Assembly: GCA_009711825.1 (NCBI GenBank)
Contig: VEMY01000011.1
Location: 1-53,661 of the forward strand
Origin: Bacillota bacterium
Lineage (GTDB): Bacteria; Bacillota; Proteinivoracia; UBA4975; VEMY01
Direction: 5' to 3'
Length of the DNA: 53,661 bases
Made by a program: the position numbers and the translations under genes. Shown one piece after another: positions 46,966 through 51,034 of the stretch. Within the stretch, counting starts at the first letter, position 1. Each line of letters opens with the position of its first letter. The notes beneath the pieces were generated by a model, which was not told the DNA's origin, did not search any database, and saw nothing but the letters and a program-made list of their open reading frames with translations.

Positions 46966-47044
46966 ATTGGTTTCCAAAAGACAACAGTATTTCCTCACAT
47001 ATTACATAAAAAATTTTGGAAGTTTAAGTGCAGGAGGTGATATT

Positions 47045-47737
47045 TTGTTCAAGCATGAAAAACAATTATTGGAGAATGTTCAAGTAGAGGCGCCAAACCC
47101 CAACTATGCTGCAATGCTGCAAGAGCAACTGGGCGGACCTCAAGGTGAACTAAAAGCGGCTATGCAGTATCTGGCCCAAAGTTTTCGAATTAAAGATCCG
47201 GAGATAAAAGATATATTTCTGGATATAGCAGCCGAGGAACTAAGTCACATGGAAATGGTGGCCACAGCAATCAACTTGCTAAACGGACATGACCCCCAAG
47301 CGGTCAATGCGACAGTGGGCAATATTGAAGCCCATGTTCTCACTGGGCTCAACCCGATGCTGAACAATGCGTCCGGACAATTATGGACAGCCGGTTATAT
47401 CAATGTTACCGGTGATTTACCCGCTGATCTCTTGTCCAACATCGCGGCTGAACAGAGGGCGAAGGTCGTTTATGAATTGCTTTACAGGCAAATCAATGAC
47501 AAACATGTCCGCAATATGATTGACTTTTTGCTCAACCGCGAAGAAGCCCATAATACTATGTTCAGAGAATGCTTTCAAAAAGTCCAAGACACTGGCTCGA
47601 CCCGGGATTGGGGGGTGGACGAGGATGCACGTCTCTACTTCGATTTGTCCACACCAGGAAACTATGTGGGCAAAAAACTGGAAAATCCTCAGTCCCCATC
47701 ATTTAACAGTCCGCAGCGACCTCCCGGACAACATTAG
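47045..47737 (+). CDS. Manganese catalase family protein (CotJC-like)
   Basis: The 230-residue four-helix-bundle protein matches manganese catalases of the CotJC spore-coat type. Dimanganese ligands are expected at the Glu in QGELKAAMQ near residue 38, EELSHMEM near 67-74, EQRAKVVYE near 140 and REEAHNTMF near 175. It degrades hydrogen peroxide, and homologues are packed in spore coats. The start is TTG at 47045, seven bases after AGGAGG; the in-frame sequence before it has no family similarity. CotJA and CotJB partners are absent. Confidence 0.9.
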   Translation: MFKHEKQLLENVQVEAPNPNYAAMLQEQLGGPQGELKAAMQYLAQSFRIKDPEIKDIFLDIAAEELSHMEMVATAINLLNGHDPQAVNATVGNIEAHVLTGLNPMLNNASGQLWTAGYINVTGDLPADLLSNIAAEQRAKVVYELLYRQINDKHVRNMIDFLLNREEAHNTMFRECFQKVQDTGSTRDWGVDEDARLYFDLSTPGNYVGKKLENPQSPSFNSPQRPPGQH

Positions 47738-47786: not shown

Positions 47787-48611
47787 TTAGGACAATAGAT
47801 GCTTCTGAATCGCCAGAGCCAGTCCGTCCTGGTCATTGGTGCTTGTTACATCATCTGCGATTGCTTTTACTGCATCAGTGGCATTGCCCATGGCGATGCC
47901 AAGACCTGCCCAGCTCAACATGCTCATATCGTTCTGTTGGTCCCCGATTGTCATCACCTGGTCGCTTGTGAGACCTAGCTTTGTTGCCAGTATTTCAACC
48001 GACCGTCCTTTATCTGCTCCTGCGCCACAAATGTCCAACAGGGTATGGTCTGTAAAAACAGGAGCTACTCCCTCAATTGACGAAAAATCTTCCGCAAGTC
48101 CGGCCAGAAATTGTGGCGTTTGCGAATATACCACCAACTTATAGACCGTCACATCGGAATTGATCACGGTATACGGGTCATCTGTGGTCAATATGTCCAC
48201 CCGTTCATCCGGAGCAAGGGTAGAATTCCATTGTTCCACTGCCGGTAGGCGGGGATTATCCGGTGCAGAGACGATGAAATCATTGCCACAAGTTACAATC
48301 CAATGGGCATTAGCTTGTTGGCAGCTGTCCAGTATCTTTCTGTACGCCGGTTTAGGCAAGGGGTTTTCAAAAATTATCTCACCGCTGTGCATATCGCGAA
48401 CCAGGGCGCCATTACTGGATATCAACGGCAAATCAATTTTCAAATCCCTGGCCAAAGACCAAATACTCTTGTCCATTCGACCGGTGGCAATCGCCACCAT
48501 AATCCCCCGCTCATGGAGAGCGGAGATTGCCCGGCGATTGGCCACTGACACCCGTTTTTCGCTGTTAAGACAGGTGCCGTCCAAATCTGTAACCACTAAT
48601 TTGATTGTCAT
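47787..48611 (-). CDS. Cof-type HAD-family phosphatase
   Basis: The 274-residue protein is a Cof-type haloacid dehalogenase phosphatase. The nucleophile motif VTDLDGTCLN is at residues 6-15, motif II is in IATGRMDKS near 42, and motif IV is in TIGDQQNDMSM near 220. The long C2-type cap between them is typical. Such enzymes dephosphorylate sugar phosphates or flavin precursors; the substrate is not predictable here. I chose the ATG at 48611, which has GGAG upstream and gives the usual start. Confidence 0.92.
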   Translation of the reverse strand: MTIKLVVTDLDGTCLNSEKRVSVANRRAISALHERGIMVAIATGRMDKSIWSLARDLKIDLPLISSNGALVRDMHSGEIIFENPLPKPAYRKILDSCQQANAHWIVTCGNDFIVSAPDNPRLPAVEQWNSTLAPDERVDILTTDDPYTVINSDVTVYKLVVYSQTPQFLAGLAEDFSSIEGVAPVFTDHTLLDICGAGADKGRSVEILATKLGLTSDQVMTIGDQQNDMSMLSWAGLGIAMGNATDAVKAIADDVTSTNDQDGLALAIQKHLLS

Positions 48612-48674
48612 GCATTTTCCACTCCCGAGAAATTCTAAAACCATCATAACATATTCTTGGCCCGATGAGCAGAC

Positions 48675-50840
48675 CTAAACCGACAATAGAGCCAAGGTCA
48701 ACAACAGGGTGCGTTGGAGCAACTCGCCCCGATGCACACATTCATCAGGAGTGAACAAGTCCCTGCTGGCAGGCCCAAAGCCGCAAACAACAGGCACTTC
48801 CGGCGGGATCACTCCTGCTGCCGACGGGAGCAGCCCGGATTCTGTTCCAAAGGGCAGCTTCCATTCGAAACTGATTCTTTTGAGCAGTGACAGCAAATCC
48901 TGATTGACAAGTGAACGGTTAAGGGCTGGGCGCTCTTCAAGTTTTTCCACATAGCAGACAGTTTCTGAAAGTTCATCTGCCGGTGAAGTGAAAAGGCGAC
49001 GAATCTCAGCTTCCGCCGCGTCCGCCAGCTCGGAGCAGAGGTATGTTATATACACTGTTGTCCGTATTCTATGGGGAAGCAAAACGCTATAGCGTTCAGA
49101 TTGTACGTCCTGAACAGCTAAACTCAATTGCTGATTGGGCTGGCTTAGTGTTCCAAGCTCTGTGGCCCGTTTCAAAAACCAGCTCATAATATCCTCCGCC
49201 CCTCGGCGGTAGCCAATGCGGCGGGAGGCGCCTTCAACCAGGATGCTGAATTTCCGCAGCCCCCGGCGCTGGTCAACAATTTTTCCCCCTTGAAAACCCG
49301 GTTGAAACACAATCACCCTTGCTGCCTGGCAAGCGGCTTGCTGTAGCAACGAACTGGAGTAGCGCATGCCCCGGCCTTCATCTGTATAAACAAATACCCC
49401 AACCGGTTTCTCATGCAAAGAGTCTGTCGACAGTAATGTCTTCAGTGCGAACAGAACACCAGTCAAACCTGCCCGGCTGGAGGCCACACCCTCGCCATAC
49501 AACCATTCAGGTTCCCGGCGGAAAGGCACTTGCAAGCTATTTATCTCCCGTGGGACATCAATACACAGCACCAACAGCGTTCCCCCCGCTAAACCGGAGC
49601 GGGTCTGCCAGGTCCACGCCGATTGACGATTGGTAAACTGGGCGTTGGACTCCATATCCAATAATTTCATTTCAGCTTCAAATTTTCTTAACACCGTTCC
49701 TAATCCAGTGGGATCCCCGGTTCTGCTTTGAAGATTTGTCCAAACCTTCAATTCTTCCTCTAGATAATCCCGATTTTGCACCAGATATGTAAAAGCGGAC
49801 TGTCGCACATCTGATACCTGGTCCAGCTTCCCAGCCTCCGGTATCAAAGGACCAAAATATCGTTGGCTGGCAATCTCAATTAATCGGTTCGTCAGCGCCG
49901 TATAATCCAAACCTTTTTGGGCCGCGGCCATAACATATGACCCGCCAGGTCCCAAGCTGGCCATGGAGTTGATCTCCAAAATGTAAGGGTTTCCTGCCCG
50001 GTCCAAGCGGAAATCGACCCGAGCGCTGTCAAAACAGCCCAGAGCTTTAAAAGCTTGAACAGCCAACTTTTGGACTTGTGCAATTTGGTCGGGACTGAGG
50101 TCCGCAGGACACACCTTCTTTATCCTGTCGGTACTTTGCCCAACCTTATCCTCATGGGTAAAGATTGCCTCCCCGCGCTCAAAAATTACCTCTACCGGCG
50201 GCAACGCTTCCACCGGTGAATTGCCAAGCAAGCCAACATTAATTTCCCGACCTTCGATGTATTCCTCGACAAGCGTAACGGCGCCCATGGTCTCATAGAT
50301 TGTGCGCACTCCTTCTCTCAGTTCATCGGCATTGCGCACAATCCTCAATCCCATGGAGACCGCCTCATCCTTGGGTTTTACGATTAACGGAAATTTCAGT
50401 CCTTCAGGCAGTGGAAACTGAAAATCCGGCGTTTCTAAAACGGCGAATTTGGGGGTGGGCAACCCTTTCTGCAGCATAACCATCTTCGTCAGTACTTTGT
50501 CCAGTGCGATTGCATGGGTCTCGGGTCCGGAGCCGACATAGGGGATGCCCAGCATCTCCAAAATACCCGGTATATGAGTATAGCGGGCTCGCCCCTGGAT
50601 GCCGTAGCTGAGATTGAAAACCAGTCCCGGCCGCTCGCCGGAAATTACAGCCGGCATAAAATCCTCTAATGCATGGATGATGTTTTTATCCCCTTCAAAT
50701 GCCTGAACCTGATGACCGCCAGCCTCAAGCGCAGATTTTATGCGGTCAATCGTTTCCAAACCGTACTTCTCCCGGTTGGGAACGCCAAACAAATTAATAA
50801 TCGCCTGACTGTCGTGATTATAGACAATTGCAATCTTCAC
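48675..50840 (-). CDS. Fusion of D-Ala-D-Ala-ligase-like ATP-grasp domain and inactive M20-peptidase-like domain
   Basis: The 721-residue protein has two parts. Residues 1-335 form a Ddl-like ATP-grasp ligase with LIVKPKDEAVSMGL (ATP lysines), VEEYIEGREI near 192, ARVDFRLD near 274, and the Mg ligands in EIN (289-291). The Ddl substrate motif PGMT..S after EIN is replaced by SMASLGPGGS, so another substrate is likely. Residues 360-721 align by pattern with M20 peptidases (LYGEGVASSRAGL, FVYTDEGRGM and the closing FTPDECV). The expected metal ligands are changed: HxD is C426-I-D, the second Asp is S454, DEE is DEG (487-489), and the late His is Phe. It is probably a pseudo-peptidase that binds a peptide-like substrate. 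The start is GTG with GGGGGT eight bases upstream. Confidence 0.8.
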   Translation of the reverse strand: MKIAIVYNHDSQAIINLFGVPNREKYGLETIDRIKSALEAGGHQVQAFEGDKNIIHALEDFMPAVISGERPGLVFNLSYGIQGRARYTHIPGILEMLGIPYVGSGPETHAIALDKVLTKMVMLQKGLPTPKFAVLETPDFQFPLPEGLKFPLIVKPKDEAVSMGLRIVRNADELREGVRTIYETMGAVTLVEEYIEGREINVGLLGNSPVEALPPVEVIFERGEAIFTHEDKVGQSTDRIKKVCPADLSPDQIAQVQKLAVQAFKALGCFDSARVDFRLDRAGNPYILEINSMASLGPGGSYVMAAAQKGLDYTALTNRLIEIASQRYFGPLIPEAGKLDQVSDVRQSAFTYLVQNRDYLEEELKVWTNLQSRTGDPTGLGTVLRKFEAEMKLLDMESNAQFTNRQSAWTWQTRSGLAGGTLLVLCIDVPREINSLQVPFRREPEWLYGEGVASSRAGLTGVLFALKTLLSTDSLHEKPVGVFVYTDEGRGMRYSSSLLQQAACQAARVIVFQPGFQGGKIVDQRRGLRKFSILVEGASRRIGYRRGAEDIMSWFLKRATELGTLSQPNQQLSLAVQDVQSERYSVLLPHRIRTTVYITYLCSELADAAEAEIRRLFTSPADELSETVCYVEKLEERPALNRSLVNQDLLSLLKRISFEWKLPFGTESGLLPSAAGVIPPEVPVVCGFGPASRDLFTPDECVHRGELLQRTLLLTLALLSV

Positions 50841-50884
50841 CGGTGATTACCCCCTTCATTCCTGAACTGCCTGGATTAATATTG

Positions 50885-50913
50885 ATTATATTCGGTTTGC
50901 CAAAATTTATCTA
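50885..50913 (-). promoter_or_regulatory. Promoter of the ATP-grasp/M20-like fusion gene
   Basis: On the minus strand TAGATA (50913-50908, four of six matches to the -35 consensus) and a perfect TATAAT (50890-50885) are 17 bases apart. They lie 45 bases before the GTG start. It is divergent from the tRNA-Val promoter. Confidence 0.55.
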
Positions 50914-50959: not shown

Positions 50960-51034
50960 GGGGCTGTAGCTCAGTGGGAGAGCGCTTGACTCACATTCAA
51001 GAGGCCGCAGGTTCGAAACCCGCCAGCCCCACCA
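50960..51034 (+). tRNA. tRNA-Val (anticodon CAC)
   Basis: A complete cloverleaf is seen. GGGGCTG pairs with CAGCCCC, and ACCA is encoded after it. The anticodon stem CTTGA/TCAAG encloses CTCACAT, giving anticodon CAC for GUG codons. The T loop contains GGTTCGAAACC. A promoter and a terminator flank the gene. Confidence 0.96.

Follow-up and report, generated by a model that had tools for sequence, protein, structure and literature searches.

In LysW-mediated lysine biosynthesis, an ATP-grasp ligase (LysX) and an M20 deacylase (LysK) are known to work as a pair, and a carrier protein is needed. The gene described here, which encodes a Ddl-like ATP-grasp ligase fused to an M20-like domain, resembles that system in this functional pairing, but LysK is catalytically active and stands alone, and the pathway depends on its carrier protein; neither of these was seen with the fusion. 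A second comparison is offered by the operon for the osmoprotectant NAGGN, which encodes an asparagine synthase, the GNAT/ligase Ngg and a glutamyl aminopeptidase (PMC8070244). The likeness lies in a small operon, a non-ribosomal dipeptide, a peptidase-type enzyme and an osmotic context (PMC8070244), whereas the loci of the fusion have partners of the gamma-glutamyltransferase (GGT) and N-formylglutamate-amidohydrolase (FGase) types, and here the peptidase-like part is inactive and joined to the ligase; asparagine synthase and acetyltransferase (GNAT) genes do not recur beside the fusion in 89 loci.

The open-access literature yielded nothing on the fusion or on the cassette formed with these partners (a survey from 2009 by Iyer and co-workers, on the gene neighbourhoods of ATP-grasp amidoligases, lies outside that scope), and the available part of a review of pseudometallopeptidases mentions no fusion of a ligase with an M20 pseudopeptidase (PMC11266112). 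None of the NCBIfam models tested covers the fusion family or the cassette. By these searches both seem to be undescribed, whereas their component parts are of known kinds.

The Fusion Gene and Its Locus

The window, i.e., the whole 53,661-nt stretch of DNA that was analysed, contains the gene as one uninterrupted open reading frame (Table 1). An earlier note on this DNA had described a single 721-residue frame without giving its strand, and all of the motifs quoted there, including EIN at 289–291, are present as quoted. The same note had credited the gene with a good start and promoter. The start stands, with a GTG codon and the ribosome-binding site AAGGGGG, but the promoter is an ordinary one and suggestive only, since the same scan returned six sites of the TAGATA-17-TATAAT kind against a chance expectation of 3.5.

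Table 1. Positions of the fusion gene, its functional parts and flanking features in the window.
Feature	Position	Strand	Basis
ATP-grasp ligase + pseudo-M20 fusion gene, 721 aa	48675-50840	-	Uninterrupted ORF, GTG start, stop included
Ligase half (ATP-grasp, Ddl-like), residues 1-333, catalytic set complete	49842-50840	-	Pfam PF07478, 1.6e-37; conservation
E289-I290-N291, metal/phosphate-binding motif of the ATP-grasp site	49968-49976	-	Sequence; E289 and N291 invariant in 93
Linker, residues 334-342	49815-49841	-	pLDDT < 50 in AlphaFold model
Pseudo-M20 domain, residues 343-721, CPG2-like fold including lid domain	48678-49814	-	Pfam, phmmer, AlphaFold, Foldseek
C426-I-D428, replacing H-x-D (CPG2 H112)	49557-49565	-	Alignment to CPG2
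S455, replacing bridging Asp (CPG2 D141)	49476-49478	-	Ser in 86/93, Asp in 0/93
D487-E488-G489, replacing D-E-E; general-base Glu present, metal Glu gone	49374-49382	-	E488 in 89/93, G489 in 87/93
Q513, replacing third acidic metal ligand (CPG2 E200)	49302-49304	-	Alignment; Arg in non-Bacillota clade
F696, replacing late metal His (CPG2 H385)	48753-48755	-	Alignment to intact M20 relatives
Ribosome-binding site AAGGGGG, 9 nt 5' of GTG start	50850-50856	-	Sequence
Promoter-like TAGATA-17-TATAAT, suggestive only	50885-50913	-	Promoter scan
Cof-type HAD phosphatase, 27 nt downstream of fusion	47787-48647	-	Identity read by eye
tRNA-Val (cac), just upstream of fusion	50960-51034	+	

The fusion gene is probably co-transcribed with the HAD gene. 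Neighbour clustering of 89 non-duplicate fusion loci revealed no conserved association with the HAD, CysE or CysK genes. The joining of the two halves is not a chance event, since full-length counterparts of about 45–69% identity occur in many other genomes. In three genomes, a gene for a ferritin-like protein resembling manganese catalase lies at a distance of two to three genes from the fusion (window positions 46967-47734; L069:6151-6720; L139), possibly by chance.

The ATP-Grasp Ligase Half

Pfam analysis matched residues 124–322 to Dala_Dala_lig_C (PF07478; 1.6e-37), and the ATP-grasp catalytic residues align with those of Ddl structures. Lys155, Glu192, Lys232, Arg274, Asp276, Glu289 and Asn291, which the fusion has in common with Ddl enzymes together with the ATP-grasp fold, are identical in 93/93 fusions, as are E199, R278 and S292. 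The differences from Ddl are an additional domain of 380 residues, a changed D-Ala pocket and sub-cut-off NCBIfam scores. Based on the alignment to Y. pestis DdlB (in E. coli numbering), S150, Y216 and S281-L282, which we take to be D-Ala pocket residues of E. coli DdlB, are replaced by V161, V233 and G300-S301, and the N-terminal GG-S-E motif of Ddl reads NLFGVPNREKYG, in agreement with the earlier proposal that the Ddl substrate motif is replaced. To judge from its sequence, this half is a carboxylate-amine ligase with a full catalytic set and an altered D-Ala pocket, and it looks active.

Since Ddl and VanA are the best PDB sequence matches of this half, the possibility that the fusion is a D-Ala-D-Ala (or D-Ala-D-Lac/Ser) ligase serving the cell wall or glycopeptide resistance was weighed. 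It is hardly credible. In addition to the pocket replacements, the fusion falls below the cut-off of every NCBIfam Ddl/Van model listed (best score, 177.2 vs. 243 bits), no van-type partner recurs beside it, and the window genome encodes a separate Ddl of 366 residues with canonical motifs that passes its NCBIfam cut-off (443.7 vs. 262 bits). A housekeeping or Van-type ligase was rejected on the NCBIfam scores, the pocket and the separate genomic Ddl, and the earlier view that this is not the housekeeping Ddl is supported.

Several other ligases were observed. The locus L110:7994-8983 (G349:C1) encodes a free-standing 330-aa ligase half, with no M20 domain after it, that scores 538 bits to the first half of the fusion and provides a naturally occurring comparison for the contribution of the dead domain. 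Distant stand-alone Ddl-like ligases at L074:6292-8517 and L080:4458-6600 lie beside a KamA-family radical SAM aminomutase, the best NCBIfam match of which is glutamate 2,3-aminomutase, so a beta-amino-acid ligase is hinted at there. Further Ddl-like ligases (L072:7537-11587 and L079:4876-10741) are found beside octopine-dehydrogenase-type and B12-binding proteins.

The M20-Like Half

The second half was assigned to Peptidase_M20 (PF01546) by Pfam over residues 436–716 (5.2e-6; 27.0 bits against a cut-off of 24.6). An AlphaFold2 model of the whole fusion, built from an 81-row alignment, has a mean pLDDT of 90.4, with a linker of low confidence at residues 334–342, and a pTM of 0.61, which leaves the position of one half with respect to the other uncertain. 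In a Foldseek search of the PDB with the whole model, carboxypeptidase G2 (CPG2) was the best match (E 2e-26; TM 0.74–0.75 by target length), ahead of the Ddl enzymes (E 1e-25). The match spans about 390 columns on the 389-residue CPG2 chain, so the second half has the M20 fold in its entirety, which settles in the affirmative the question, raised in advance, of whether a structural model of the C-terminal half would be M20-like. The likeness to CPG2 and other M20 enzymes (PF01546; PDB 1cg2) comprises the whole fold, the lid domain, the order of motifs, the general-base Glu and the Arg of the R-P-P motif, whereas the window protein is devoid of any dinuclear metal ligand and sits fused behind a ligase.

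Alignment to CPG2 by phmmer placed H112, D141, E175, E176 and E200 opposite C426, S455, E488, G489 and Q513; the motif pairs (HMD/CID, ADDKG/ASSRA, DEE/DEG and FEP/FQP) cover the first four metal positions. The numbering and roles of the CPG2 residues, H385 included, are presumed here. The late His falls on F696 when the protein is aligned with two intact M20 relatives that stand alone, and these relatives, aligned by the same method as a positive control, have all five ligands. The five metal positions of the window protein thus read C426, S455, G489 (within D-E-G), Q513 and F696, just as had been reported from the sequence.

The loss extends over the family. The fusion set consisted of 93 proteins, a few of them from duplicate contigs; removal of odd frames and of sequences more than 92% identical to another left 81. 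Among the 93, the bridging Asp (D141) is never present and Ser stands in its place in 86; the second metal Glu (E176) is likewise never present, with Gly in 87; and at the position of the third acid (E200), 77 have Gln or Arg and none has an acidic residue, so that the two zinc sites are not restored by the alignment. The late-His (H385) position holds Tyr in 59, Phe in 10 and His in eight. The first His (H112) is kept in 31/93, mainly outside the Bacillota and together with Arg at the E200 position, and the position of C426 is mostly Pro in Bacillota. The metal ligands are gone in both deep clades, and the main clade has largely the same replacements. D428, D487 and R637 are invariant among the fusions, the last being the Arg of the R-P-P motif that is also present in intact M20 relatives, and the general base E488 is found in 89/93. 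As read from these alignments, the retained residues are those of the pocket and the general base, not the metal ligands; D428, D487 and E488 may form a different, mononuclear site.

The frequency of E488, the invariance of both supporting Asp residues and the first His of 31 fusions are what would be expected if this half were still a peptidase, working with an unusual metal set or by a metal-free mechanism. We consider this very improbable, as the bridging Asp, the metal Glu and the third acid are missing throughout, including in the deep clade of L064, L108 and L109. The M20 fold combined with a family-wide loss of metal ligands upholds the earlier description of the C-terminal half as a pseudo-peptidase.

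For close pairs with usable dS, omega was 0.034–0.25 in the M20 half and 0.022–0.13 in the ATP-grasp half, and these low values indicate that the dead domain is maintained rather than decaying. Recent decay of the M20 half is ruled out by the low omega together with the ligand loss in both deep clades. Both marks of a pseudoenzyme, catalytic loss common across the family and purifying selection on the domain, were found.

M20 lid domains dimerise, and the M20-like half could be a mere structural or oligomerisation scaffold that binds no ligand. Its sequence is less well conserved than that of the more slowly diverging ligase half (mean pairwise identity, 0.42 vs. 0.65), as a scaffold might be, and pseudometallopeptidases often work through protein–protein contacts, according to the available part of the review (PMC11266112). 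Conservation, as judged from motifs rather than coordinates, clusters at the former active-site motifs (D428, S455, R456, D487, E488, G489, R637, E700 and R704) and not at surfaces, which makes a pure scaffold unlikely.

Distribution and Host Habitat

Full-length orthologues were found in nine other genomes of the phylum, with 44–61% identity over the M20 half, along with three distant ones. A scan of named genomes with a protein alignment returned 211 relatives, the best 80 of which were kept; a scan with the single protein gave no match. The best 80 of the 211 come from soda-lake Syntrophomonadaceae and other Clostridia, Alkaliphilus, Anaerotalea and Heliorestis; from Evansella, Salipaludibacillus, Alkalicoccus, Alkalihalobacterium and Litchfieldia alkalitelluris; from Planctomycetota (including Scalindua), Desulfonema, Desulfobulbaceae, Zixibacteria and Latescibacterota; and from Nitrospirota, Nitrospinota, Gammaproteobacteria and Acidimicrobiaceae. 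Based on these 80 and the tree, in which the window protein clusters with Syntrophomonadaceae, Eubacteriaceae and related sequences, the fusion spans about ten bacterial phyla, for the most part in lineages that favour salt or alkali. The earlier note had asked whether the fusion and its loss occur elsewhere, and both are conserved in Clostridia and well beyond. All 19 of the named cultures with the fusion among the best 80 of the 211 are organisms that we take to be alkaliphilic, halophilic or marine.

The GGT and FGase Partner Genes

In the 89 non-duplicate loci, a gene for a divergent GGT-type Ntn hydrolase adjoins the fusion in 64, as does an FGase-like gene in 50; the next commonest neighbour family, a generic ABC ATPase, is found in 16. 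The intergenic gaps of the cassette, which occurs in about ten phyla, are mostly within 30 nt or overlapping. GGT is located upstream in most Bacillota and downstream elsewhere, and the existence of two gene orders indicates that the linkage outlived rearrangement.

Among the 15 genomes with the ligase, one of which (G349) has the ligase half alone, GGT and FGase are both present in five and both absent in ten (Fisher p 3e-4). Across 398 genomes of the phylum, the cassette-type GGT is found in 5/15 ligase genomes and 2/383 others (p 7e-7) and FGase in 5/15 and 4/383 (p 4e-6); all of these p-values ignore shared ancestry. Both genes have been lost within one genus (G058 vs. G096 and G161), and in some ligase genomes FGase is present yet unlinked to the fusion. 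GGT and FGase come and go together and are usually encoded with the fusion. The window genome contains no FGase, and the one GGT that it encodes belongs to a different type (YwrD-like by eye; 35% identical to the cassette enzyme), so the genome is ligase-only, which is why the partners were out of view in the earlier note.

Ligase-only genomes, together with G042 and G011, which have no ligase, indicate that the three genes are not an obligate unit. G042 encodes a cassette-type GGT (L233:6978-8663; 48% identical) and neither FGase nor ligase. G011 has a GGT–FGase pair without a ligase (L219:6949-11243) and a transposase-like ORF directly upstream, and the ligase may have been lost there. In two loci of soda-lake Clostridia (L130:4075-10166 and L155:7995-12838) the order is ligase–GGT–ligase with two different fusions, followed by FGase in L130; the two copies in L130 are 69% identical, which suggests two related products or a hetero-oligomer.

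The GGT partner is altered. It resembles GGT (PF01019) in keeping the nucleophile/autoprocessing Thr, but the gamma-glutamyl donor site is changed, Arg114 and Asp433 of the E. coli enzyme being replaced by Ser and Ala, respectively. In E. coli GGT these two residues bind the gamma-glutamyl donor, and mutants at the Asp433 position lose transfer while keeping hydrolysis or gaining acylase activity; thus, B. subtilis GGT D445A has no transfer and 40% of its hydrolysis (PMC8062742). B. licheniformis GGT tolerates Ser at the Arg114 position, and GGTs of extremophiles have it naturally (PMC8062742). The cassette GGT also differs from GGT in that no signal peptide was seen by eye in the sampled N termini, and for this reason all three cassette enzymes are probably cytoplasmic. 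The cassette FGase keeps the family motifs of N-formylglutamate amidohydrolase (PF05013), but with 67 bits it comes nowhere near the 279-bit cut-off of the HutG equivalog model.

With two of the three linked enzymes being amide hydrolases by family, the cassette might be catabolic, scavenging or detoxifying N-acyl or gamma-linked amino-acid conjugates, with the ligase activating or tagging the substrate for cleavage by GGT and FGase. However, it is the ligase alone that is retained when GGT and FGase are both absent, the opposite of what a degradative module would be expected to keep, and no transporter or regulator recurs beside the fusion in the 89 loci. A catabolic role is therefore unlikely.

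Proposed Function and Significance

The explanation that we favour as the probable one, taken as a whole, is a non-Ddl peptide or amide ligase joined to a dead, ligand-binding M20 module, with GGT and FGase as an accessory arm. By analogy with Ddl, the ligase would join two small amino-acid-like substrates by an amide bond through an acyl phosphate. The M20 domain would have lost hydrolysis and kept its pocket for a peptide or carboxylate, and we infer a role in substrate presentation or regulation: it would either dock the acceptor substrate for the ligase or sense the product. GGT and FGase would deacylate or turn over the ligase product, and the existence of ligase-only genomes points to the ligase as the core and to the other two as a recycling or processing arm.

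Host habitat and the analogy with the NAGGN operon lead to a more tentative suggestion, for which the chances are modest: that the ligase, GGT-type and FGase-type cassette is an undescribed pathway by which haloalkaliphilic and marine bacteria of about ten phyla make and turn over a compatible solute, namely a small amide-linked dipeptide. The amide would be N-acyl or gamma/beta-linked, and the M20 domain would serve as a built-in sensor of substrate or product.

The sequence suggests the name of a Ddl or of an M20 peptidase, and neither fits the fusion family. A pseudo-peptidase and an active-looking ligase in one chain, found in many phyla, represent a clean example of a hydrolase pocket that has apparently been put to new use in a non-catalytic role. 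Through the conserved three-gene cassette there is a directly testable route to a metabolite of possible importance to organisms living in salt and soda.
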